From positions 1 to 64,000 of the forward strand of contig NZ_JASNRA010000013.1 of the NCBI RefSeq assembly GCF_030411955.1: a stretch of 64,000 bases of DNA. Reading direction: 5' to 3'. Origin of the DNA: Massilia sp. YIM B02443. Its GTDB lineage: Bacteria; Pseudomonadota; Gammaproteobacteria; Burkholderiales; Burkholderiaceae_D. The notes beneath the pieces are model-generated. The model was not told the origin of the DNA and made no database searches. It saw nothing but the letters and a program-made list of their open reading frames with translations. This document shows positions 26,118 to 38,273 of the stretch, piece after piece. The translations under genes and the position numbers were made by a program. Position 1 is the first letter of the stretch; every line of letters starts with the position of its first letter.

Positions 26118-27737
26118 ATGAGTTTTGAAGCACTAGGCCTCCACGCGTCCATCGTCAAGGCAGTCGCCGACGCAGGCTACACCAACCCGACCCCGGTCCA
26201 GGCGCAAGCCATCCCGGCAGCCATCGCACGCCGCGACCTGCTGGTCTCGTCGCAGACCGGCTCGGGCAAGACCGCAGCCTTCATGCTGCCGGCCCTGCAC
26301 CATCTGGCCAACCTCGAACCGGCGCCAGCCGGCAAGACCCCTGCGCAAGAAGCGCAGGCCGCCCGCGCCCGCGGCGAGCGCGTCCGTTTCAAGCCGGCCC
26401 AGCCGAAAATGCTGGTGCTGACCCCGACCCGCGAACTGGCCCTGCAGGTCACCAGCGCAACCGACCAGTACACTGCCCACATGCGCCGCCTGCGCTGCGT
26501 TTCGATCCTGGGCGGCATGCCGTACCCGAAGCAGATGCAACTGCTGGCCAAGAATCCCGAGATCCTGGTCGCCACCCCGGGCCGCCTGATCGACCACATG
26601 GAGTCGGGCAAGATCGACTTCTCCGAACTGCAGATCCTGGTGCTGGACGAAGCCGACCGCATGCTGGACATGGGCTTCATCGACGACATCGAGAAGATCG
26701 TCGCCGCGACCCCGTCGAGCCGCCAGACCATGCTGTTCTCGGCCACCCTGGACGGCGTGGTCGGCAACATGGCGCGCCGCATCACCACCGATCCGATGAC
26801 GATCCAGATCGCCAGCGCCACCAACCGCCACGAGAACATCGTGCAGAAGGTGCACTTCGTGGACGACCTGTCGCACAAGAACCGCCTGCTCGACCACCTG
26901 CTGCGCGACGAAGGCCTGGACCAGGCCGTGGTGTTCACCGCCACCAAGCGCGACGCCGACATGATCGCCGACCGCCTGAACATCGCCGGCTTCGCCGCCG
27001 CCGCACTGCATGGCGACATGCACCAGGGCGCGCGCAACCGCACCCTGGACAGCCTGCGCCGCGGCAGCGTCAAGGTGCTGGTGGCAACCGACGTCGCCGC
27101 GCGCGGCATCGACGTGCCGAACATCACCCACGTGGTGAACTACGACCTGCCGAAGTTCCCGGAAGACTACGTGCACCGCATCGGCCGTACCGGCCGCGCC
27201 GGCCGCAACGGCACCGCGATCTCGCTGGTCAACCACGCGGAAAGCATGAACATGCGCCGCATCGAGCGCTTCACGCGCCAGCCGATCCCGGTCGGCGTGG
27301 TCGAAGGGTTCGAACCGAAGCGCAGCGCGCCGAGCTCGCGCGCCGGCGCCCGTCCGGGCTGGAAGCCAGGCGACGGCCGCAGTGCCGGCAAGCCGGCCCA
27401 GCGCAGCTTCGGTAAGCCTGGCTCCGGCAGCCCACGTGAAGGCGGCTACGGCGAGCGCGCACCGCGCGAAGCCTACGCACCGCGTCCATATGGCGACCGT
27501 CCAGCGGGCGACCGCGCCCCGAGCGAAAGCCGCTATGCAGACCGCGGCCCGCGCGAAGGCGGCTATCAAGGCCAGCGCAGTAGCGGTTACGCCGACCGCG
27601 CACCACGTGAAGGCGGCGGCTACGCTGGCCGTCCGGCGGCCGACCGCGCACCGCGCGACGGTCAGCGCCGTGAAGGCGGTTACAAAGGCGCCCATCCGCG
27701 CTCGATGGAAGGCGCACGCCGCACCTTCGGCGAATAA
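26118..27737 (+). CDS. rhlE: DEAD-box ATP-dependent RNA helicase RhlE type
   Basis: 539 aa. Q motif (F..LGLH, PTPVQ), Walker A SQTGSGKT, motif Ib TPGR, motif II DEAD, motif III SAT, motif V ATDVAARGIDV and motif VI HRIGRTGRAGR are all present. The C-terminal about 130 residues are low-complexity, with repeats of REGGY, DRAPRE and related Arg/Gly units, which usually bind RNA and promote condensates. Expected to unwind structured RNA in ribosome assembly and RNA decay, especially in the cold. Followed by a clear intrinsic terminator. Confidence 0.95.
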   Translation: MSFEALGLHASIVKAVADAGYTNPTPVQAQAIPAAIARRDLLVSSQTGSGKTAAFMLPALHHLANLEPAPAGKTPAQEAQAARARGERVRFKPAQPKMLVLTPTRELALQVTSATDQYTAHMRRLRCVSILGGMPYPKQMQLLAKNPEILVATPGRLIDHMESGKIDFSELQILVLDEADRMLDMGFIDDIEKIVAATPSSRQTMLFSATLDGVVGNMARRITTDPMTIQIASATNRHENIVQKVHFVDDLSHKNRLLDHLLRDEGLDQAVVFTATKRDADMIADRLNIAGFAAAALHGDMHQGARNRTLDSLRRGSVKVLVATDVAARGIDVPNITHVVNYDLPKFPEDYVHRIGRTGRAGRNGTAISLVNHAESMNMRRIERFTRQPIPVGVVEGFEPKRSAPSSRAGARPGWKPGDGRSAGKPAQRSFGKPGSGSPREGGYGERAPREAYAPRPYGDRPAGDRAPSESRYADRGPREGGYQGQRSSGYADRAPREGGGYAGRPAADRAPRDGQRREGGYKGAHPRSMEGARRTFGE

Positions 27738-27762: not shown

Positions 27763-27788
27763 CGGCTGCTTCGGCAGCCGTTTTTTTT
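27763..27788 (+). terminator. Intrinsic terminator of rhlE
   Basis: Stem CGGCTGC / GCAGCCG with a TTCG tetraloop and eight Ts directly after it; A residues before the stem pair with the first Ts. A textbook rho-independent terminator 26 nt after the rhlE stop. Confidence 0.95.
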
Positions 27789-27797
27789 CGTGCCCGC

Positions 27798-27803
27798 TAT
27801 AAT
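27798..27803 (+). promoter_or_regulatory. -10 element for senB-selD
   Basis: A perfect TATAAT 42 nt before the senB ATG and just after the rhlE terminator. The -35 region coincides with the T-tract and is poor. It implies senB-selD has its own transcript. Confidence 0.55.
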
Positions 27804-27845
27804 CTTTCATCCTTCCCGCATACGCTCTCCCCGCCTCCCTTCGCA

Positions 27846-28835
27846 ATGCCCCGTCCCCGCATCCTGATCGTCAGCCCCGCCTCCGCCCGCGACAACAATG
27901 GCAACTGGCAAAGCGCCAGCCGCTGGGCGCGCTTCCTGCGACCCGGATACCGGGTCGGGATCGCGTCCGGCTGGTCGGCAGGCGACGCCGTGCCCGACCT
28001 GTTGATCGCGCTGCACGCGCGCCGTTCGGCGCAGGCACTGGCGGCATTTCGCGCTGCGCACCCGCAGCGCCCGACGCTGCTGGTGCTGACCGGGACCGAC
28101 GTCTATCGCGACATCGACCATGACGCCGCCGCCCGCGCCTCGCTCGAGCTGGCCCAGGCCATCGTGGTGCTGCAGGCCGACGCCATGACGCGCCTGCCGG
28201 CCGGCGTGCGCGCCAAGGCGAGCGTGATCCACCAATCCGCGCCGCCCCTCGCCCCGTATGCGGGTCCGGCGCGCCGGGTGCGCGAGATCTGCATGATCGG
28301 CCACCTGCGTCCCGAAAAAGATCCGCTGACCTTCATGCGCGCGGCGCGCCTGGTCGACGATCCCGGCCTGCTGCTGACCCATATCGGCGGCGTGCTGGAT
28401 CCAGTCCTGGGCCAGGCCGCCGGGGAAGCAGCGCACGACAATCCGCGCTACCGCTGGCTGGGCGCCCTGCCGCGCGCCCGCACGCGCCAGATCCTCAAGC
28501 GCAGCCACGCGATGGCAATTACCTCGCTCATGGAAGGCGGCGCCAACGTCATCATCGAAGCCGTCACCTGCGGCGTGCCGGTGCTGGCCTCGGATATCGG
28601 CGGCAACGTCGGCATGCTGGGCCGCGACTATGCCGGCTATTTCGCGCCGGGCGACGCCGCGGGACTGGCGCGGCTGGCCGAGCGCAGCGTGCACGACCCC
28701 GACTTTCACGCGCTCTTGAAGCGCCAGTGCGCGGCGCGCGCGCCATTGTTCGCCCCGAGCGCCGAGCAAGCGCTGCTGCGCGACATGGTGGATAATCTGC
28801 TGCGTCAAACAACATCACCGGAAAAATCCCCATGA
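27846..28835 (+). CDS. senB: SenB-like selenosugar synthase (GT4-type glycosyltransferase)
   Basis: 329 aa from ATG 27846; the in-frame region before it overlaps the promoter. A GT-B fold is indicated by the N-terminal ILIVSPASARDNNGNW segment and the C-terminal donor-site motif EGGANVIIEAVTCGVPVLASDIGGN. This N-terminus and the coupling to selD match the family once called TIGR04348 and now known as SenB, which condenses selenophosphate with UDP-N-acetylglucosamine or UDP-glucose to form a selenosugar for selenoneine. Assignment is from memory of the family. Its stop overlaps the selD start (ATGA). Confidence 0.8.
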   Translation: MPRPRILIVSPASARDNNGNWQSASRWARFLRPGYRVGIASGWSAGDAVPDLLIALHARRSAQALAAFRAAHPQRPTLLVLTGTDVYRDIDHDAAARASLELAQAIVVLQADAMTRLPAGVRAKASVIHQSAPPLAPYAGPARRVREICMIGHLRPEKDPLTFMRAARLVDDPGLLLTHIGGVLDPVLGQAAGEAAHDNPRYRWLGALPRARTRQILKRSHAMAITSLMEGGANVIIEAVTCGVPVLASDIGGNVGMLGRDYAGYFAPGDAAGLARLAERSVHDPDFHALLKRQCAARAPLFAPSAEQALLRDMVDNLLRQTTSPEKSP

Positions 28836-29887
28836 GCATCAGCGACCAACCGATCAAACTCACCTCGTTCTCCCACGGCGGCGGCTGCGGCTGCAAGATC
28901 GCGCCCGGCGTGCTGGCCGAGATCCTGAAGTCCTCGAGCGGCTTCCCGCTGCCGAAGGAACTGATGGTCGGCATCGAGACCGCGGACGACGCCGCGGTCT
29001 ACAAGCTCAACGACGAGCAGGCGCTGATCGCCACCACCGATTTCTTCATGCCGATCGTCGACGATCCGTTCGACTTCGGCCGCATCGCCGCCACCAACGC
29101 GATCTCGGACGTGTACGCGATGGGCGGCACCCCGATCATGGCGCTGGCGCTGGTCGGCATGCCGGTCAACAAGCTGCCGCTCGAGACCATCGGCCAGATC
29201 ATCCGCGGCGGCGAATCCATCTGCGCCGAAGCCGGGATCCCGATCGCCGGTGGCCACACCATCGACTCGGTCGAGCCGATCTATGGCCTGGTGGTGATGG
29301 GCCTGGTGCATCCGTCGAAGGTCAAGCGCAACGCCGACGCCAAAGCGGGCGACGTGCTGGTGCTGGGCAAACCGCTGGGCGTGGGCGTGCTGTCGGCCGC
29401 GCTCAAGAAGGACGCGCTGGGCAAAGAGGACTACGACGCCATGATCGCCAACACCACCAAGCTCAACAAGCCGGGCCGCCTGCTGGCCGAGATGGCGGGC
29501 GTGCATGCGCTGACCGACGTCACCGGCTTTGGCCTCCTGGGCCACCTGCTGGAACTGGCGCGCGGCGCGCAATTGTCGGCCCGGCTGGAGATGAACGCGA
29601 TCCCGCTGCTGCCCGGCGTGCTGCAGCTGGCGCACGACGGCTACTTCACCGGCGCATCGGGCCGCAACTGGGACGCCTACGGCAAGGACGTGCAGCTGGA
29701 CGCCGCCATCACCCCGGCCCAGCGCGCCCTGCTGACCGACCCGCAAACCTCGGGCGGCCTGCTGGTGTCGTGCGACCCGGATTCGGTCGACGAGGTGCTG
29801 GCGCTGTTCGCGCGCGAAGGCTTCGGCGAGGCCGCCGTGATCGGCCGCATGGATGCCGGCACGGCGGGCGTCACCGTCAAGGCCTGA
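28832..29887 (+). CDS. selD: Selenide, water dikinase (SelD/SenC)
   Basis: 351 aa. Catalytic Cys19 and Cys21 in GGGCGCKIAP with the adjacent lysine, the metal-binding block ATTDFFMPIVDDP, and the AIR-synthase-like C-domain (TDVTGFGLLGHL) are intact. It makes selenophosphate from selenide and ATP. The coupling to senB (4-nt overlap) suggests its selenophosphate feeds the selenosugar synthase, the role called SenC. No selA, selB, selC or ybbB is in this window, so a role in selenocysteine or selenouridine synthesis cannot be judged. Convergent with the DUF1906 gene. Confidence 0.95.
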   Translation: MSISDQPIKLTSFSHGGGCGCKIAPGVLAEILKSSSGFPLPKELMVGIETADDAAVYKLNDEQALIATTDFFMPIVDDPFDFGRIAATNAISDVYAMGGTPIMALALVGMPVNKLPLETIGQIIRGGESICAEAGIPIAGGHTIDSVEPIYGLVVMGLVHPSKVKRNADAKAGDVLVLGKPLGVGVLSAALKKDALGKEDYDAMIANTTKLNKPGRLLAEMAGVHALTDVTGFGLLGHLLELARGAQLSARLEMNAIPLLPGVLQLAHDGYFTGASGRNWDAYGKDVQLDAAITPAQRALLTDPQTSGGLLVSCDPDSVDEVLALFAREGFGEAAVIGRMDAGTAGVTVKA

Positions 29888-29901
29888 GCGCGCGCCTGCG
29901 A

Positions 29902-30591
29902 TCAGGTCCGCAGTTCCAGTTCCTGGTGCAGCGGCAACGTCAGCTCCGCCACCGCATCGCACGCCTCCACCTGGAACAGGCCCGGATCGCGTCCCGGATT
30001 GCCGATGTCGGGCGTGATCTCGAAGGTCGCGCCGGCCAGCGCGATGCGGGTCGGCATCCATTGCAGCAGGTCGTAGCGCATCGCGTGCGCATAACTCTGG
30101 GTGCCGGCGAAGCCGCGCGCCTGCGACAGCCAGGCCAGCGTGGCGAGGCCGCGGTCGATCATCGCCGCGCAGCAGCGCCCCGAACCGTGCACGCCGACGC
30201 GGTAGCCGGCCGGCCCGCTGAGCGTGGCGCGGATGCCGGTGAAATAGGCGGCGATCGGGCCGTCGACTTCCTCGCGCGTGGCGTCGTGCCCGAGCGCCAC
30301 ATAGATCGCGCTGCCGGCCGGCTGGCCGGCGGCGCGCGCCAGGCGCAGCGCGTCGGCGCCATCCAGCAGCCCCTGCTGGCGCGTGAAATAGGCTTCGTGG
30401 GTGGCGCCGTGCTCCCACAATGCGCCGATCTTGAGCCCGGCGTCGGACAAGCTGCGCGCTTCGTCCAGGCCCAGGTTGCGGCCCGGATCGCGGCCGTAGC
30501 AGCGCATGACGAAATCGTAGCCGCGCCGGCGCAGCGCCGGCGCGTGCCGCCCCATGTCGAGCGGCGTATCGAATCCCTTGAGCGTCGCCAT
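29902..30591 (-). CDS. DUF1906 glycoside-hydrolase-like protein
   Basis: 229 aa. Begins with GFDTPLDM, then YDFVMRCYGRDPGRNL, and has acidic residues at strand ends (YVALGHD), as in DUF1906 (Rv2525c-like, GH25-type TIM barrel). No signal peptide, so its target, if peptidoglycan, would need another export route. GGAGGGG sits just before the start. It is the second gene of a unit with a 56-residue membrane peptide. Enzymatic activity is not shown for most of the family. Confidence 0.8.
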   Translation of the reverse strand: MATLKGFDTPLDMGRHAPALRRRGYDFVMRCYGRDPGRNLGLDEARSLSDAGLKIGALWEHGATHEAYFTRQQGLLDGADALRLARAAGQPAGSAIYVALGHDATREEVDGPIAAYFTGIRATLSGPAGYRVGVHGSGRCCAAMIDRGLATLAWLSQARGFAGTQSYAHAMRYDLLQWMPTRIALAGATFEITPDIGNPGRDPGLFQVEACDAVAELTLPLHQELELRT

Positions 30592-30601
30592 GTCCCCTCC
30601 T

Positions 30602-30772
30602 TCAGGCGCGGTCGGCGCCGGGGTGGGCCGCGTGCTCGTCGACCGGATGGCGCACCGTGACCGGCCGGCGCAAGGCCAGCAGCACCGGCGTCACCACCAG
30701 CAACAGCAACAGCACGGCCGCCAGCGCCAGCACGACCGGCAACGGGAATACGGCAGCGAGATCTTGGCTCAT
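30602..30772 (-). CDS. Small membrane peptide upstream of DUF1906
   Basis: 56 aa. One long hydrophobic helix (about 8-34, with a Leu5 run) followed by Arg-Arg and a His/Asp-rich tail. The start has GGGAGA 6 nt upstream. The stop is 10 nt before the DUF1906 start, so they form an operon. It resembles no family I recognise; it could anchor or export its partner. Real because of the ribosome site, spacing and coding bias. Confidence 0.7.
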   Translation of the reverse strand: MSQDLAAVFPLPVVLALAAVLLLLLVVTPVLLALRRPVTVRHPVDEHAAHPGADRA

Positions 30773-30906
30773 GACATCTCCCGGTCAGTGTTATCGCGCG
30801 CCCGATTGGTTTCGCGCAAGACCGTACTGTGCCACCGCCTTAAACGGATTAATTTGACCGGCCGCAATCCTCAGCCGGGCGTTGCAGAGACGCCGCGCCG
30901 CCACCG

Positions 30907-31851
30907 TCAGCCGCGCCGCGCCAGCGGCGGCACCCCGGTGTCGACCGGCGGCACGCCGCTGCCGGCCTGCCCCACCCGCTCGTATTCGGCGATTACCTGC
31001 GCCCCGAGCAGCAGCAGCGTGGCCGCGATTTCGAGGCTGAACATGACCACGATGGCGGTGGTCATCGAGCCGTACACCACGTTCACCTGCGACAGCGTCG
31101 AGAAATACCAGACCAGCACGTGGCGCGCCGCTTCCCACAGCAGCGCCGCGGTGACGCCGCCGATGGTGGCGTGCCACAGCGACAGCCGCCCGACCGGCAT
31201 CACCAGGTAGATCGAGGTCAGCACCAGGATCTCGCCCAGCAGGCCCAGCAGATACAGCAAGGCGCCCGAGACGCCGCCGAGCGACCAGCGGTAGTTGAAC
31301 AGCCACACGCTCTCGGTGCCCATCACCTGCAGCGCGCCGGCCACCAGGGTCACGATCATGATGCCGAAACCGAGCGCCACGATGTAGCAGTACGGCAGCA
31401 GCGCCGACACCGCGTAGTGGCGCCGGCGGGTCGCCACCCGGTGCACGAAGATCACGCTCATGGCGTTTTCCAGCACGGTGAACGCGAGCGAACTGAAGAA
31501 CAGCATGGTGAGCGCCAGCACCCAGGTGATGATCTGGCGGTCTTCCAGGAAGCTGGCGACCTCGGTGACGATCGGGCGCGACTGGCCCGGCACCAGCAGT
31601 TCGAGGTAGCGGCGCAGCGTGTCGAGCAGCTCGGCCTGGTCGATGAAGTGCGACAGCACCACCACCACCAGCATCAGGAACGGCACGATCGACAGCAGCG
31701 CGTAATAGGCGACCGCGCCGGCCAGCAGCAGGCCCTGGTTGGCGCGGAAGCCCTTGAGCACCTGCAGCGCGAACGCCAGCGGGTGCGAGAGGATGTAGAT
31801 GTTGGCGCGCTGGTCGAGCAGGCGCGCGCGCCAGTCACGCCGGCGGCTCAT
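30907..31851 (-). CDS. YihY/BrkB family inner membrane protein
   Basis: 314 aa from ATG 31851. About six TM segments with the YihY hallmarks GAVAYYALLSIVPFLML near the N-terminus, FTVLENAMSVIF in the middle and YGSMTTAIVVMF near the end. Once misnamed ribonuclease BN. Its stop is 3' terminal in the egtD-egtB operon and its start overlaps the egtB stop (ATGA), suggesting linked expression, perhaps for transport of ergothioneine or a precursor; that link is inference only. The C-terminus (GVPPVDTGVPP) is repetitive. Confidence 0.9.
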   Translation of the reverse strand: MSRRRDWRARLLDQRANIYILSHPLAFALQVLKGFRANQGLLLAGAVAYYALLSIVPFLMLVVVVLSHFIDQAELLDTLRRYLELLVPGQSRPIVTEVASFLEDRQIITWVLALTMLFFSSLAFTVLENAMSVIFVHRVATRRRHYAVSALLPYCYIVALGFGIMIVTLVAGALQVMGTESVWLFNYRWSLGGVSGALLYLLGLLGEILVLTSIYLVMPVGRLSLWHATIGGVTAALLWEAARHVLVWYFSTLSQVNVVYGSMTTAIVVMFSLEIAATLLLLGAQVIAEYERVGQAGSGVPPVDTGVPPLARRG

Positions 31852-33074
31852 CGTGCCAGCCGGATGCCGGTGAATTGCCAGCGCGCGCCGGTCGGGAAGA
31901 AGTTGCGGTAGCTGGCGCGCGCGTGGCCGTCCGGCGTGGCGCAGGACGAGCCGCGCAGGACGTACTGGTTGATCATGAACTTGCCGTTGTATTCGCCGAT
32001 GGCGCCCGGCGCCGGGGCAAAGCCCGGGTATGGCGCATAGCTGCTGCCGGTCCACTGCCAGCAGGCGCCGAACATCTGTTGCAGGCCCTGCCCGCTGGCG
32101 GCCGCCGGATGATGGGCCGGGCCTTTGGCGAGCACGGCCTGGCGCGCGGCGAATTCCCATTCGGCTTCGGTCGGCAGACGCACGCCGGCCCAGCGCGCAT
32201 AGGCGTCGGCCTCGTACAGCGAGACGTGGGTCACCGGACGTTCGGGGTCGAGCGGCCTGGCGCCGTGCAGGGTGAACTCGTGCCAGCCGCCCTCGTCCTC
32301 GAACCAGTACAGCGGATGGATGATCTCGCCCGAGCACACCTTGTCCCAGCCTTCGGCCAGCCACAGCGACGGGTCGCGGTAGCCGCCGGCCTCGATGAAG
32401 GCCAGGTATTCGCCGTTGGTCACCAGGCGCGAGGCCAGCGCGAAGGGCGCGACATAAGTGCGGTGGCGCGGCAATTCGTTGTCGAAGCAGAAGCCGCGGC
32501 CGTTGTAGCCGATCTCGGCCAGCCCACCGTCGAAGTCCAGCCATTCCAGCGCCGGGGCCGGGGCGGCATCAGGCAGCGTGTCATGCGCATAGGCCGGATA
32601 CAGCGGATTGCATGACAGCAGGTGCTTGACGTCGGTCAGCATCAACTCCTGGTGCTGCTGCTCGTGCTGCAGGCCGAGTTCGACGGTGGCCGCCAGCGTC
32701 TCGTCCACGCCGCGACCAAGGAGCGCCATCATGCGCCGGTCGACATCGAGGCGGTAGGCCTTGACCTCGTCCAGCGACGGCCGCGTGAGCAGGCCGCGCT
32801 GCGGACGCGGGTGCCTGGCGCCGATGCCGTTGTAATACGAATTGAACAGCACCCGGAACGCCGGATGGAAAGGCGCGAAGCCTTCCTCGCGCGGCTCCAG
32901 GATGAAGGTCTCGAAGAACCAGGTGGTATGCGCCAGGTGCCACTTGATCGGGCTGGCGTCGGGCATCGACTGGGCGCAGCAATCCTCGTTCGAGAGCGGC
33001 TCGGCCAGGTGCAGCGAACGGGCGCGCACTTGCCCGAAGCGGCGTTGCAGGCTCTCGTCGCGCAACATGTTCAT
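31848..33074 (-). CDS. egtB: Ergothioneine biosynthesis protein EgtB
   Basis: 408 aa. DinB_2 domain (about 1-165) with iron ligands in WHLAH and in HEQQHQE (HX3HXE), then an FGE-sulfatase domain (about 185-405) with LPTEAEWEFAAR and the C-terminal LRGSSCATP segment. EgtB joins hercynine to cysteine or gamma-glutamylcysteine with oxygen. The KWHLAHTTWFFE block matches standard EgtB rather than, as I recall, the selenoneine synthase SenA. It overlaps egtD and yihY by 4 nt each. A role with the selenosugar cannot be ruled out. Confidence 0.93.
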   Translation of the reverse strand: MNMLRDESLQRRFGQVRARSLHLAEPLSNEDCCAQSMPDASPIKWHLAHTTWFFETFILEPREEGFAPFHPAFRVLFNSYYNGIGARHPRPQRGLLTRPSLDEVKAYRLDVDRRMMALLGRGVDETLAATVELGLQHEQQHQELMLTDVKHLLSCNPLYPAYAHDTLPDAAPAPALEWLDFDGGLAEIGYNGRGFCFDNELPRHRTYVAPFALASRLVTNGEYLAFIEAGGYRDPSLWLAEGWDKVCSGEIIHPLYWFEDEGGWHEFTLHGARPLDPERPVTHVSLYEADAYARWAGVRLPTEAEWEFAARQAVLAKGPAHHPAAASGQGLQQMFGACWQWTGSSYAPYPGFAPAPGAIGEYNGKFMINQYVLRGSSCATPDGHARASYRNFFPTGARWQFTGIRLAR

Positions 33075-34051
33075 GTCGGGATCGCCTGGGCGTGGATCAC
33101 GGCGAACGGACATTGCGGATCGGTCCAGATCCGGGTCGCCTCGAAACCGGAACGCTCGAGCAGCTTGACGGCGTCGGCCTGCTGGTACTTGTAGCTGTTC
33201 TCGGTGTGGATGCAGTCGCCGGCGCGGAAAGCGCGCGCGCCGCCCTGCCAGCGCACCTCCTGGTCGCGGGTCGCTTCCAGGTGCATCTCGACCCGGCCGC
33301 GCGCGGCGTTGTAGAAGCCGCGGTGGCGCCAGGCGCGGATGTCGAAATCGGCGCCGAGCAGCGTGTTCACGTGGCGCAGCACGTTCAGGTTGAAGGCGGC
33401 GGTCACGCCCAGCGCGTCGTCGTAGGCGGCGTCCAGCACCGCCTTGTCCTTGACCAGGTCGATCCCGATCAGGACCCCGCCGTCGTCGCCGCACTGGGCG
33501 CGCAGGCGGCGCAGGAAGGCTTGCGCTTCGTCGGGCGTGAAATTGCCGATCGACGAACCGGGATAGAAGAACAGGCGCCGCGCGGCCGTTACCCGCGCCG
33601 GCAGTTCGAACTGCTGCGAGAAGTCCATGCCCAGCGCTTCCATCGCGATGTGCGGGAAGCGCTGGCGCAGGCGGCCCAGGGCGTCGTGCAGGAATTCGCT
33701 GGAGATGTCGACCGCCACGTACTGGGCCGGCGCCAGCAGCGGAAACAGCGCGGCCGCCTTGGCGCAGTTGCCGGCGCCGAGATCGATCAGGGTGCTGCCG
33801 GCGCCGGCCACGCGCGCGATCTCGGCGCCATGGCGCGCGAACAGCGCCGCTTCGGTGCGGGTCGGATAGTATTCGGGCAGTTCGCAGATCGCCTCGAACA
33901 GCTTGGAGCCGAGCGAATCGTAGAGGAATTTGGGCGAAATCCAGGCCTGCGGCGCGCCCAGCGAGGCGTGCAATTCATCGGCCACGTGGGCATTGACCGG
34001 AATGTCGGAAGCACCGGCAGGCGCTATATCGGATGTACAGGAGGTCAGCAT
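33071..34051 (-). CDS. egtD: L-histidine N(alpha)-methyltransferase EgtD
   Basis: 326 aa from ATG 34051; an ATG at 34063 is also possible. SAM-binding motif LIDLGAGNCAKA, the region LFFYPGSSIGNF and the C-terminal HTENSYKY block are hallmarks of EgtD (Methyltransf_33). It trimethylates histidine to hercynine, the precursor of ergothioneine and also of selenoneine. First gene of egtD-egtB-yihY and divergent from the PhnD-like transporter operon across a 167-nt region. Confidence 0.95.
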   Translation of the reverse strand: MLTSCTSDIAPAGASDIPVNAHVADELHASLGAPQAWISPKFLYDSLGSKLFEAICELPEYYPTRTEAALFARHGAEIARVAGAGSTLIDLGAGNCAKAAALFPLLAPAQYVAVDISSEFLHDALGRLRQRFPHIAMEALGMDFSQQFELPARVTAARRLFFYPGSSIGNFTPDEAQAFLRRLRAQCGDDGGVLIGIDLVKDKAVLDAAYDDALGVTAAFNLNVLRHVNTLLGADFDIRAWRHRGFYNAARGRVEMHLEATRDQEVRWQGGARAFRAGDCIHTENSYKYQQADAVKLLERSGFEATRIWTDPQCPFAVIHAQAIPT

Positions 34052-34126
34052 AAGGTTTATCATTCGTGCCGCCACGCCGCACCGTGCGAGATGGCCAGGC
34101 GCATCGCCTGATTCTGTTGCCGCTTT

Positions 34127-34136
34127 TGCTATCATA
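34127..34136. promoter_or_regulatory. Divergent, near-symmetric -10 elements
   Basis: TGCTATCAT on the plus strand is an extended -10 for the transporter operon. The same bases read as TATGAT on the minus strand, a -10 for egtD. The two hexamers overlap almost fully. Transcripts in both directions would be mutually exclusive or coregulated. Leaders of about 75 nt result on each side. No activator site was recognised. Confidence 0.45.
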
Positions 34137-34218
34137 GCGGATTGTCGCGAAACGCCGTTTTCGCCTCGGTTCAAGCGTGCAGGCCCTTGGGCGCCCCGCT
34201 CTTAACTTTTCAATAAGA

Positions 34219-35106
34219 ATGCAAATGACCCTGTCCTTCCGCCGCCAAGTCCTCAAGCACCTGATCGCCGCCGCCGTCGGCACCGTGGCCATCGCGGGCG
34301 CCGCCCACGCACAATCGAGCGCCGGCGTCCTGCGCGTTTCGGCGATTCCCGACGAAGCTCCGACCGAACTGCAGCGCAAGTTCAAGCCGCTGGGCGAATA
34401 CCTGGCCAAGCAGACGGGACTGAAGGTCGAGTTCACCCCGGTGACCGACTATGCCGCCTCGGTGGAAGGCCTGATCAACCGCAAGATCGACATGGTCTGG
34501 TTCGGCGGCTTCACCTTCGTGCAAGCCAATGTGCGCAGCAAGGGCCAGGTGACCCCGCTGGTGCAGCGCGCCGAGGATGAAAAGTTCCGCTCGGTATTCA
34601 TCACCACCCAGCCGGGCATCAACAAGCTGGAAGACCTGAAGGGCAAGACCCTGGCCTTCGGTTCCGAATCGTCAACCTCGGGCCACCTGATGCCGCGCTC
34701 GTTCCTGCTGCAGGCCAAGATCAACCCGGATACCGACCTCAAGCGCATCGCCTTCTCGGGCGCACATGACGCCACCGTGGCGGCCGTGGCCGGCGGCAAG
34801 GTCGATGCTGGCGCACTCAACATCTCGGTCTGGGAAAAGCTGGTCGAAGGCAAGAAGGTCGATCCGAAACAGGTGCGCGTGTTCTACACCACCCCGGGCT
34901 ACTTCGACTACAACTGGAGCGTGCGCAGCGACATGGACCCGGCGCTGAAGAAGAAGATCACGGACGCCTTCCTGGCGCTGGACGCGTCGACCGCGCAGGG
35001 CAAGGAAATCCTGGACCTGCAGCGCGCCACCAGGTTCGTGCCGACCAAGACCGCCAACTACGGCGCGATCGAAGCCGCTGCGCGCAACGCCGGCCTGCTG
35101 AAGTAA
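34219..35106 (+). CDS. PhnD-like ABC transporter substrate-binding protein, putative selenium oxyanion importer
   Basis: 295 aa. Signal peptide about 1-32 ending AGAAHAQ. The mature protein has the PhnD-type fold: LRVSAIPDEAPTELQRKF, DMVWFGGFTFVQA and SESSTSGHLMPRSFL, with a small oxyanion-binding pocket of Ser/Thr. As I recall, a PhnD-like subfamily with this pattern is proposed to bind selenate because it clusters with selD and SenB; that matches this context. A phosphonate role is less likely because no phn catabolic gene is near. Start at ATG 34219 or 34225. Confidence 0.8.
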   Translation: MQMTLSFRRQVLKHLIAAAVGTVAIAGAAHAQSSAGVLRVSAIPDEAPTELQRKFKPLGEYLAKQTGLKVEFTPVTDYAASVEGLINRKIDMVWFGGFTFVQANVRSKGQVTPLVQRAEDEKFRSVFITTQPGINKLEDLKGKTLAFGSESSTSGHLMPRSFLLQAKINPDTDLKRIAFSGAHDATVAAVAGGKVDAGALNISVWEKLVEGKKVDPKQVRVFYTTPGYFDYNWSVRSDMDPALKKKITDAFLALDASTAQGKEILDLQRATRFVPTKTANYGAIEAAARNAGLLK

Positions 35107-35125
35107 TCGAAGGCCCGCCGATCCG

Positions 35126-35941
35126 ATGCCGACCTACCGCCTGCGTCAACTCACCGTGCGCCACCTGACCGGCAACCGCGCGCCGGCGCTGCACGCGCTC
35201 GACCTCGAGATTGGCGCCGGCGAGCAGGTCGCCCTGATCGGTCCTTCCGGCGCCGGCAAGACCACGCTGCTGGCCACCCTGGCCTGCGCCCACCGTCCCG
35301 CCGAGGGCAGCCTGGAAGTGTTCGGACGCGACCCTTGGGCGCTGAACGGGGGCGCGCGCCATCGCCTGCGCAGCCACCTGTTCCTGGCGCCGCAGACGCC
35401 GCCGCTGCCGCCGCGCCAGCGCGTGGTCACCGCGGTGCTGGCGGCGCGCCTGCCGCACTGGAGCCTGTGGCAGGCGCTCGGTTCGCTGGTGCGCCCGCAG
35501 GATCCCGACGCCGCGCACGCGGCGCTGGCCCGCTTCGGCCTGGGCGACAAGCTGTATGCGCGGGTCGACCGCCTGTCCGGCGGCGAACGCCAGCGCTGCG
35601 GCCTGGCGCGCCTGCTGCTGTCGAACGCCGAAGCGCTGCTGGTCGACGAGCCGATTTCCGCGCTCGACCCGGCGCTGGCGCGCCACACCCTTGCCACGCT
35701 GCGCCAGGAAGCGGCCAAACGCAACGCCACGCTGGTGTGCAGCCTGCACCAGGTAGACCTGGCGCGCGAAGGCTTCGCGCGCCTGATCGGCCTGCGCGAC
35801 GGGCGCATCGTGTTCGACGCGCCGCGCGAACAGGTCAGCGACGCCATGATTGCCGACCTGTACGCCAACGAGAGCGTCACGCCCGCGCTTGAGGTCCTGC
35901 ACGATTCGCCCGAGCGCATCGCGGTCGGCGCCTGCTTCTGA
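35126..35941 (+). CDS. PhnC-like ABC transporter ATP-binding protein
   Basis: 271 aa. Walker A GPSGAGKTT, ABC signature LSGGERQR, Walker B LLVDEPISALD and the switch His (CSLHQ) are complete. It resembles PhnC rather than PstB. It begins 19 nt after the binding-protein gene and is followed by two permease genes, so it powers the same importer. The C-terminus ends about 30 residues after the switch region, as in the PhnC family. Confidence 0.9.
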   Translation: MPTYRLRQLTVRHLTGNRAPALHALDLEIGAGEQVALIGPSGAGKTTLLATLACAHRPAEGSLEVFGRDPWALNGGARHRLRSHLFLAPQTPPLPPRQRVVTAVLAARLPHWSLWQALGSLVRPQDPDAAHAALARFGLGDKLYARVDRLSGGERQRCGLARLLLSNAEALLVDEPISALDPALARHTLATLRQEAAKRNATLVCSLHQVDLAREGFARLIGLRDGRIVFDAPREQVSDAMIADLYANESVTPALEVLHDSPERIAVGACF

Positions 35942-35962
35942 ACCTTCGTTGCCGCACGCCGC

Positions 35963-36787
35963 ATGACGAAGGTTCTTCACCCCGATCCGGCCTGGCGCAC
36001 GCGCGTCACCGCCGCTGCCGTATTCATTGTGCTGCTGGTCCCGATGCTGGCGGCCAGCGAATTCAAGCCCTGGGCGCTGTTCGACGCCCAGAGCCTGCGC
36101 GCGACCGGCATGTTCCTGGGCGACTTCCTGACGCCGTCCAGCGAACCCGAATTCCTGGCAATGGTGCTGCGCGAGACCTGGCAGACGGTCGCCATCGCCA
36201 GCGCCGGCCTCACCCTGGCGCTGCTGGCCGCGATCCCTGCCACCTTCGTCATCAGCGAACGGCTGTCGATCTCGCGCCTCGGCACCGGCCGCATGCACCC
36301 GCTGGCGGCCGGCGTGCGCCAGCTGCTGCGCTGGATCCTGGTGATCCTGCGCTCGGTGCCCGAGCTGGTGTGGGCGCTGCTGTTCGTGCGCATCGTCGGG
36401 CTCGGCCCCACCGCCGGCGTGCTGGCCATTGCCCTCTCCTATAGCGGCATGCTGGCCAAGGTATATGCCGAGATTTTGGAATCGGGCGACGCCCACGCCA
36501 CCGACGCCCTGCTGGCCAATGGCGGCGGGCGGCTGCCGGCGCTGCTGTACGGCGCCCTGCCCGAGTCCAGCGCCGAACTGGTGTCCTACACCGTGTACCG
36601 CTGGGAGTGCGCGATCCGCGGCTCGGCGGTGATGGGTTTCGTCGGCGCCGGCGGCCTGGGCCAGCGCCTGGACGAGTCGACCAGGATGATGGCCGGCGGC
36701 GAAGTCGCGACCATCTTGACCATGTTCGTGCTGCTGGTGGCGGCGGCCGACCTGGTCTCGAAATTCCTGCGCCGGAGGCTGGGATGA
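35963..36787 (+). CDS. PhnE-like ABC transporter permease 1
   Basis: 274 aa. BPD_transp_1 domain with about six TM segments and the conserved RSVPELVWALLFVRIVGLGPTAG and VGAGGLGQRL blocks typical of PhnE permeases. The stop overlaps the next permease by 4 nt. It forms half of the channel for the oxyanion importer. Confidence 0.9.
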   Translation: MTKVLHPDPAWRTRVTAAAVFIVLLVPMLAASEFKPWALFDAQSLRATGMFLGDFLTPSSEPEFLAMVLRETWQTVAIASAGLTLALLAAIPATFVISERLSISRLGTGRMHPLAAGVRQLLRWILVILRSVPELVWALLFVRIVGLGPTAGVLAIALSYSGMLAKVYAEILESGDAHATDALLANGGGRLPALLYGALPESSAELVSYTVYRWECAIRGSAVMGFVGAGGLGQRLDESTRMMAGGEVATILTMFVLLVAAADLVSKFLRRRLG

Positions 36788-37584
36788 CGGGAGCGACGAA
36801 CAAGCTGCCGCCTCCTCCACCCCGCTCGCCCGGCGCCTGGCTGCTGCTGCTCGGCATCGTGGCGCTGGTGGTGGCCAGCTTTGCTTCGCTGCCGCTGGCC
36901 TGGAGCGCCTTCTTCACCGCCGAAGCGGTGACCTCGGTGCGTGAATTCCTGCAAGGCTTCGCACCGCCCGAGACCAGCCCCGCGTTTTTGCAGAAGACCC
37001 TGGGCGCGCTGGGCGAGACGCTGGCCATGTCGGCCGTCGGCACCCTGCTGGCGGCGCTTCTCGGCCTGCCGCTGGCACTGGCCGGCGCCGGGCGCATGGG
37101 CCGCGTGGCGCGCGTCGTGGTGCGCCTGATCCTGAACGTGCTGCGCTCGATCCCGGAACTGGTGTGGGCCGCGGTGCTGCTGGTGCTGGCCGGGCTGGGA
37201 CCGATGGCCGGCACCCTGGCGCTGGCCGCGCATACCGCCGGGGTGCTGGGCCGGCTGTTCGCCGACGCGCTGGAAAACGTCGAACCGCTGGCCGAACAGA
37301 GCCTGCGCACCAATGGCGCGCGGCCGTTGGCAGCCTTCCTGTACGCTACCCTGCCGCAGGCGCTGCCGCAGATGCTGTCGTACACGCTGTACCGCTGGGA
37401 GAACAATATCCGCGCCGCGGCCGTGCTGGGCGTGGTCGGCGCCGGCGGTCTGGGCCAGATGCTGAAGTACCACCTGTCGCTGTTCCAGATGCCGAGCGCG
37501 GCGACGGTGGTGCTCGCGATGCTGGTGCTGGTGGCGCTGGTGGATGCGGTCAGCTATGCGCTGCGGCGCGCGCTTACCCGTTGA
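36784..37584 (+). CDS. PhnE-like ABC transporter permease 2
   Basis: 266 aa from ATG 36784, overlapping permease 1 by ATGA. A proline-rich start (KLPPPPPRSP) precedes about six TM segments, with RSIPELVWAAVLLVLAGLGPMAG and VGAGGLGQML blocks matching permease 1. The two are paralogues and probably heterodimerise. Confidence 0.9.
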   Translation: MTGATNKLPPPPPRSPGAWLLLLGIVALVVASFASLPLAWSAFFTAEAVTSVREFLQGFAPPETSPAFLQKTLGALGETLAMSAVGTLLAALLGLPLALAGAGRMGRVARVVVRLILNVLRSIPELVWAAVLLVLAGLGPMAGTLALAAHTAGVLGRLFADALENVEPLAEQSLRTNGARPLAAFLYATLPQALPQMLSYTLYRWENNIRAAAVLGVVGAGGLGQMLKYHLSLFQMPSAATVVLAMLVLVALVDAVSYALRRALTR

Positions 37585-37616
37585 TCTTTACCCGATTTCA
37601 ACCCCACCAGGACCGG

Positions 37617-38273
37617 ATGCTCGAACTCGACCAGCTCACCAAGACCTACGGCGGCCGCACCGTGCTGTCGCGGCTGTCGCACGTGTTCCAGCCGGGCGAG
37701 TTCGTCGCCATCATGGGCGAGTCCGGGGTCGGCAAGTCGACCCTGCTGAACCTGATCGCGGGCCTGGACGCGCCCACGGCCGGGCGCGTGCTGGTCGACG
37801 GTGTGCCGATGTCGGCGCTCGACGACGACGCCGCCACCCGCCTGCGGCGCACCCGCATGGGCTTCATCTTCCAGGCCTTCCACGTGCTGCCGCACCTGAC
37901 GCTGCGCCAGAACGTGGCGCTGCCGCTGCTTTTGAATGGCGACGCGAATGGCGACGCCACCATGCGCGCCGGCGCCATGCTCGATGCGGTCGGCCTGCGC
38001 GGCCGCGGCGCCGACTTCCCGCGCCAGCTGTCGGGCGGCGAACTGCAGCGGGTCGCCATCGCGCGCGCCCTGGTGCACCGTCCGGCGCTGCTGCTGGCCG
38101 ACGAACCGACCGGCAACCTCGACCCGGACACCGCCAATGGCATCCTGCAGCTGCTGCGCGCCGAAACGCGCGCCCACGGCGCCGGCGCGATCATGGTGAC
38201 CCATTCGCACGCCGCGGCCGCCATGGCCGATAAAGTGCTTGTGCTCACTAATTCCGGATTGAAATTAGCGTAA
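37617..38273 (+). CDS. LolD/MacB-type ABC ATP-binding protein
   Basis: 218 aa. Walker A GESGVGKST, signature LSGGELQR, Walker B LLADEPTGNLD and switch His (VTHSH). The MGFIFQAFHVLPHLT block is that of the LolD/MacB class, unlike the PhnC-like ATPase. It begins 32 nt after permease 2 with no membrane partner of its own class nearby. Either it serves another permease elsewhere or supports this operon in an unknown way. Confidence 0.9.
   Translation: MLELDQLTKTYGGRTVLSRLSHVFQPGEFVAIMGESGVGKSTLLNLIAGLDAPTAGRVLVDGVPMSALDDDAATRLRRTRMGFIFQAFHVLPHLTLRQNVALPLLLNGDANGDATMRAGAMLDAVGLRGRGADFPRQLSGGELQRVAIARALVHRPALLLADEPTGNLDPDTANGILQLLRAETRAHGAGAIMVTHSHAAAAMADKVLVLTNSGLKLA

Follow-up and report, generated by a model that had tools for sequence, protein, structure and literature searches.

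An Oxalobacteraceae selenium and ergothioneine locus in Massilia sp. YIM B02443 that carries senB, selD and egtDB and in whose genome no senA was found

The closest described system is the sen cluster of Variovorax paradoxus (senA-senB-senC), the product of which is selenoneine, and in the literature that we surveyed bacterial selenosugars figure as intermediates towards this compound. OvsA of the ovoselenol pathway (PDB 8ux5) is reportedly another relative of the sulfoxide synthases, other than SenA, that takes selenium. We analysed a stretch of 64,000 nucleotides (the window) from the genome of Massilia sp. YIM B02443 (5.71 Mb, 85 contigs, completeness 100%; labelled G000 in the comparisons), in which senB, as in V. 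paradoxus, is adjacent to selD/senC, and in which the ergothioneine genes egtD and egtB and a PhnD-like ABC importer are located nearby. Unlike the Variovorax cluster, the window has no senA beside senB, and none was found elsewhere in the genome. Massilia polaris (L272), Massilia agrisoli (L277) and Duganella radicis (L212) share these sen, sel, egt and binding-protein genes with the window, in identical order and orientation, but neighbourhoods of this type have senA between a helicase gene and senB, where the window has none. Our preferred reading, which we put forward tentatively, is that the window holds an old Oxalobacteraceae selenium/ergothioneine locus minus senA and that the selenosugar branch may be maintained without SenA in several Massilia.

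Families were assigned with the curated cut-offs of NCBIfam, with Pfam and by sequence matches to the PDB. The product of senB (27846..28835, plus strand), a selenosugar synthase (Se-glycosyltransferase), scored 397.7 bits against TIGR04348 (cut-off 300) and 272.9 bits against the solved Variovorax SenB (PDB 8fbx). In two papers (PMC10891094, PMC10702425), residues N20, T23, K158, E231 and E239 of SenB are given as catalytic or donor-binding, and H58, R61, T83, T85 and R155 as the pocket for the selenium-bearing phosphate. N20, H58, R61, T83, T85, D86, R155, K158, E231 and E239 are all kept in the window protein, with T23 replaced by serine. Glutamate stands for V157 in all 73 non-Variovorax SenB rows and EGGAHV reads EGGANV in 72 of the 73; by this alignment both changes mark the whole compared group and not the window alone. 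The preliminary description of this DNA had proposed a senB-like glycosyltransferase, and the score above the cut-off together with the retained catalytic residues places the protein inside the selenosugar synthase family, with selenosugar formation as its predicted activity.

The selD/senC gene (28832..29887, plus strand; TIGR00476, 438.9 bits, cut-off 125), coding for selenide water dikinase, shares a 4-base ATGA overlap with senB, and its product is the only SelD among three AIRS-domain matches in the genome, the two others being ThiL and PurM. The egtB gene (31848..33074, minus strand; TIGR03440, 576.3 bits, cut-off 360) codes for an ergothioneine sulfoxide synthase of the cysteine type and is joined by another ATGA overlap to egtD (about 33071..34063, minus strand, start uncertain; TIGR03438, 378.7 bits, cut-off 290.9), which codes for histidine N-alpha-methyltransferase. 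Divergent from egtD is the gene of the PhnD-like periplasmic binding protein, a member of the family that NCBI names 'putative selenate ABC transporter substrate-binding protein' (about 34225..35106, plus strand, start uncertain, frame open from 34177; TIGR04553, 405.5 bits, cut-off 250). The scores of SenB, SelD, YihY, EgtB, EgtD and the binding protein all exceed the curated cut-offs of their NCBIfam models, so the gene set is, as judged from the profiles, not a chance match. The three units announced in the preliminary description, senB-selD, egtD-egtB-yihY and a divergent PhnD-like ABC operon within 10.5 kb, were all found at their places, and the profile search bore out SelD, EgtD, EgtB and the TIGR04553-type binding protein as genuine family members.

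We searched the whole genome for SenA with the model NF041186 (cut-off 420) and found none at E <= 1e-3. The sole full-length match to the model is the EgtB of the window, with 399.7 bits, so that the earlier remark that a dedicated SenA was not visible extends to the entire genome; two partial matches, both below 58 bits, were returned besides. In the window, senB directly follows the hairpin behind the helicase gene, the place at which relatives carry senA. The helicase-senB gap is 108 bases from stop to ATG (112 by the locus measure) and is 1.3-3.3 kb in 17 measured senA-bearing loci; gaps as long as 2.6 kb also occur in certain other genomes that have no senA adjacent. A hidden SenA replacement among the weak matches was sought in part: the match on contig C30 (L006) was rejected as a kinase/FGE fusion, and the other, L005, lay outside this check. 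From its translation, L006 resembles a protein kinase and ends in an FGE-type domain at the C-terminus; partial matches to the SenA model that cover this part were seen in all 10 SenA-less genomes that were re-searched.

A survey of 62 Massilia genomes gave SenB over the cut-off in 44 and SenA over the cut-off in 37. SenA is missing from ten of the 44 SenB-bearing genomes, namely that of the window and G099, G107, G109, G114, G124, G127, G139, G140 and G143, which are scattered over the tree of the locus. In the nine other SenA-less genomes and in G132 no SenA was found at 1e-3, the strongest leftover match being a partial one of 80.6 bits. That senA is present and was missed, in an assembly gap or through divergence, and that the pathway is complete, is in our view very improbable. 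Fragmentation would favour it, the genome being in 85 contigs, as would the relocation of senA away from senB in 15 related genomes, into at least five neighbourhoods; none of the ten SenA-less assemblies with SenB over the cut-off is closed, and G132, the only SenA-less genome in a single contig, shows numerous broken frames. Against this stand the completeness of 100%, the purely partial character of the matches at 1e-3 (below 58 bits here and at most 80.6 bits in the ten other genomes) and the need for the same gap in ten assemblies with SenB over the cut-off. The broken frames of G132 (L180) affect the senB, permease, LolD-like and Ppx/GppA-like genes and suggest errors in sequencing rather than decaying genes. 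A literature search returned no description of senB without senA, although one may stand in the primary papers (Kayrouz 2022, 2024), and nothing relevant on Massilia and selenite.

The evidence for a maintained senB comes from its sequence conservation. In the SenA-less clade of the three species G107, G140 and G143, the omega values of SenB, determined like the rates on an alignment trimmed to the SenB core, are 0.26, 0.20 and 0.27, and their 95% bootstrap intervals all fall within 0.13-0.42; SenB is under purifying selection in this clade. The key residues of SenB are intact in 10 of 10 SenA-less genomes (74-row alignment), and the rate of SenB relative to the flanking proteins shows no difference between the 10 SenA-less genomes (1.70) and 13 genomes with senA elsewhere (1.65; p = 0.40). 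Three pairs with a frame overhang were dropped from the dN/dS calculation (SenB G115-G126, n = 664; EgtB G139-G146, n = 742; EgtB G000-G114, n = 707). We count also in favour of a selenosugar branch without SenA that, according to PMC11929427, SenB together with SenC is sufficient for the formation of organic selenium in E. coli cells.

Several observations weigh against this reading. The pairwise dN/dS of the window SenB is 0.42 with G138 and 0.45 with G114, which ranks with the highest values in the pairs compared (G127-G135 also gave 0.42), although those of SelD and EgtD are likewise raised in the pairs of the window. The SenB branch of the window is long (0.33) and pairs with the long-branched G102 (support 94), in conflict with the locus tree, which was built from six flanking proteins in 58 rows (all trees were quick searches without bootstrap); straight vertical descent of the window senB is for this reason only likely. 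On the locus tree, the sister group of the window consists of nine genomes that lack senA and senB and keep selD, egtDB and the importer, and the loss of senB in these closest relatives fits an intermediate stage of loss. With senB overlapping selD or lying shortly before it, coupling could account in part for the retention of senB. In addition, we identified no gene whose product would act on the selenosugar, and the sequence data are compatible with a possible promiscuity of EgtB.

Taken together, such observations would describe a pathway caught in passing, from which senA was lost first and in which senB is an idle remnant, held in part by its coupling to selD and due to disappear as in the sister genomes. 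This explanation, which we hold to be rather unlikely, gains from the nine nearest relatives, from the long branch, from the ATGA overlap and from the instability of SenA, whose presence needs at least nine changes among the SenB-bearing Massilia rows (quick tree). It is opposed by the clear constraint on SenB in G107, G140 and G143, by the catalytic residues intact in all ten genomes with no difference in rate, and by the sister species, which lack senB upstream of selD and have kept selD, so that coupling does not force the retention of senB. The SenA-less label itself needs nine changes on the locus tree, of which seven are forced by well-supported branches.

We then compared the window EgtB with SenA. 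Against the SenA model it reaches 398-400 bits, with 398.3 in the profile search of the window genes, and the full-length matches of the family sample described below fall into two ranges, 308-413 bits under the cut-off and 448-539 bits over it. At 63 columns separating 58 EgtB rows, of which the window protein is one, from 64 SenA rows, it is EgtB-type at 62, SenA-type at none and neither at the 63rd. EgtB as a misnamed SenA was thus rejected, its score being within the range below the cut-off and the column test being unambiguous. The histidines H49, H137 and H141, which we take to be the iron-site positions of EgtB, are the same three in 64 of 64 SenA rows and in every EgtB row that has a residue at these positions. 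The tyrosines Y80 and Y81, which presumably correspond to Y93 and Y94 of C. thermophilum EgtB, are kept in the window protein; SenA has W or L followed by F.

Among solved structures, the cysteine-type EgtB of PDB 6o6l, 'EgtB (Cabther)', matches the window protein over its whole length with 452.7 bits, and the iron-site histidines and the tyrosine pair align with what we take to be the corresponding residues of that enzyme; nothing tested suggests another substrate for the window EgtB. The match to OvsA (PDB 8ux5) is 115 bits, compared with 453 to EgtB. The genome search with the SenA model returned no further long match, the OvoA model itself not having been run genome-wide. In 769 column tests on EgtB, none distinguished the 10 SenA-less genomes from 33 with SenA once the tests were corrected for their number (best p = 6.6e-4). 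A specialised switch of EgtB to the task of SenA is unlikely, given the lack of a separating column and the 62 of 63 EgtB-type positions, and a native promiscuity is possible from the same alignments.

These data bear on a further explanation, in which EgtB would substitute for SenA as a bifunctional sulfoxide/selenoxide synthase and couple the selenosugar to hercynine, giving selenoneine. All its substrates would be made within a few kilobases, EgtB and SenA are homologous with H49, H137 and H141 in common, the importer adjoins egtB in 27 of 49 importer-bearing genomes of the family, and a review (PMC10903977) names selenocysteine as a selenium donor that enzymes of the ergothioneine type might use. 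We nevertheless regard it as unlikely: the discriminating columns are EgtB-type with none SenA-type, both tyrosines are kept, the EgtBs of SenA-less and SenA-bearing genomes are alike, and the literature search found no test of EgtB with a selenosugar. The designation of the region as a selenoneine locus in the preliminary description was not upheld, and selenoneine cannot be claimed as the predicted product, as no SenA was found genome-wide and EgtB shows no shift towards SenA.

For the preferred reading, an old locus from which senA was removed and whose selenosugar branch persists, we infer the following reactions. SelD would produce selenophosphate, feeding also MnmH and SelA, which are encoded elsewhere in the genome, and SenB would convert part of the selenophosphate into a 1-seleno-sugar. 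In a separate route, EgtD and EgtB would use histidine and cysteine to form hercynine and ergothioneine, and the PhnD-like importer would probably bring in a selenium source. As no SenA was found in the genome, the selenosugar would be used in its own right rather than through a dedicated selenoneine step, most likely as a selenium store, as a detoxified or exported form or as the precursor of a further product. The chemistry proposed earlier for this region thereby remains plausible up to the selenosugar.

Other users of selenophosphate are common in the genus: MnmH/SelU is over the cut-off in 60 and SelA in 20 of the 62 genomes, that of the window being included in both counts. From these profiles selD has further clients; senB alone among the selenium genes here lacks its known client. 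As a side observation, selA occurs in none of the 15 importer-bearing Massilia with senA elsewhere and in 13 of the 21 without senA, the latter belonging mostly to two clades, which may reflect a trade-off or merely the common ancestry of these clades.

Taking the Massilia data together, we find it evenly balanced whether, in about ten species, SenB works without SenA, its selenosugar being either a functional selenometabolite or precursor or a substrate taken by the ordinary EgtB to give selenoneine. Species with a constrained SenB and no SenA found offer a natural test between a role of the selenosugar itself and an EgtB doing the job of SenA. If SenB does function without SenA, this would be a further branch of selenium metabolites beside selenoneine and ovoselenol; uptake by EgtB, if true, would amount to a route to selenoneine that dispenses with a dedicated synthase.

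The arrangement was then followed outside the genus. Among the best 80 of 461 named SenB loci, a divergent senA adjoins senB in 64, is lacking in 14, and in two the sequence starts too near senB to tell; all 16 loci outside the senA-adjacent 64 are from Massilia or Telluria. The binding-protein gene is within the 9-kb flank in 15 of the 64 senA-adjacent loci, next to egtD in 14 of these, and the 15 come from Massilia, Duganella, Pseudoduganella, Herminiimonas, Noviherbaspirillum and others. In a sample of 97 genomes of the family, drawn from a larger group, SenB was over the cut-off in 42, SenA in 48 and TIGR04553 in 49. SenA was over the cut-off in 40 of the 42 SenB-bearing genomes, the exceptions being the genome of the window and G004, in which a SenA-like match beside senB reached 408.5 bits, just below 420. 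From this distribution, the importer-egtDB-senB neighbourhood, which combines uptake, activation and ergothioneine synthesis, is seen as an old family trait and not as peculiar to one genome. The combination had been called unusual; as the same neighbourhood recurs across Oxalobacteraceae, normally with senA, the arrangement is not. In eight of the 97 genomes SenA is over the cut-off (448-481 bits, at the lower end) with no SenB over its own; they may form a SenA subgroup that uses another donor, or they may reflect the boundary of the model.

The importer consists of the binding protein, a PhnC-like ATPase (35126..35941, plus strand; TIGR02315, 184.3 bits, below the cut-off of 266.1), a first, PhnE-like permease (35963..36787, plus strand; TIGR01097, 191.6 bits, below the cut-off of 216.7; PF00528) and a second permease (36784..37584, plus strand; PF00528, 63.4 bits), which has an ATGA overlap with the first. 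These four genes stand as the PhnD-like operon outlined in the preliminary description. Its last gene does not: the LolD-like ABC ATPase (37617..38273, plus strand; best NCBIfam match LolD, 203.5 bits, below the cut-off of 307.75) is probably outside the importer, since it stays in position in those Massilia that lack the importer. The nearest solved relatives of the binding protein are phosphonate- and phosphite-type binding proteins of the PtxB/PhnD type (144-189 bits), 'selenate' is the hypothetical family name of NCBI, and the ligand is putative. The literature search returned no selenium-specific PhnD-type importer and no ligand-tested member of TIGR04553.

In the family sample, SenB is present in 22 of the 27 genomes with the importer next to egtB, versus 3 of the 22 with the importer elsewhere (Fisher p 2e-6, with distances and counts taken by eye and relatedness uncorrected). 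In Massilia, 10 of 36 importer-bearing genomes have neither senA nor senB, and the importer is absent from all 21 genomes in which senA adjoins senB. Judged by Massilia only, the importer could be taken for a recent addition, gained as senA was lost and not occurring together with an adjacent senA; this was rejected on the wider sample, in which both occur together in 15 of 64 loci. For the same reason an ancestral importer beside egtD, lost in one Massilia group, is the more likely history. Importer and egtDB are kept without either sen gene in ten Massilia (L167-L171, L173-L176 and L179).

Locus states were scored in 61 of the 62 Massilia genomes, the incomplete G148 being left out. We distinguished senA beside senB with no importer (21 of 61), senB and importer with senA elsewhere (15, in two of which senB runs off the contig end), senB and importer with no senA (11, G132 included), importer with neither sen gene (10) and none of the three (4). 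The unlinked senA genes of the 15 genomes (L186-L200) are located in at least five different neighbourhoods, and 12 of the 15 form one Massilia clade. The three others, from G128, G137 and G138, group with a single very long row and fall outside the rest of the sampled SenA, a place that the long branch makes unsure. The G138 SenA shares 58% identity with the SenA of G018, and among the best 120 matches listed its best-named relatives beyond its own small cluster are Janthinobacterium and Noviherbaspirillum proteins of 63-67% identity, with one 69% match to a metagenome bin labelled Bacillota. The greater nearness to Janthinobacterium and Noviherbaspirillum than to G018 suggests that senA was re-acquired by transfer into a lineage still holding SenB.

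The remaining features of the region are as follows. The conserved left flank is a DEAD-box RNA helicase gene (26118..27737, plus strand; PF00270/PF00271), the same neighbour in many related loci. A terminator-like hairpin 3' of this gene, with a 7-bp stem, a TTCG loop and a run of eight T (27763..27788, plus strand), was read from the sequence. Nine bases beyond it and upstream of senB lies a TATAAT (27798..27803, plus strand), a possible -10 element of senB with no good -35 by eye. Downstream of egtB, yihY codes for a YihY/BrkB-type inner membrane protein (about 30907..31851, minus strand, start inferred from the open frame; TIGR00765, 80.2 bits, cut-off 73.15; PF03631, 110 bits). Between selD and yihY, a gene for an Rv2525c-like glycoside-hydrolase-like protein (29902..30591, minus strand; PF08924, 98 bits) has a patchy presence among relatives.

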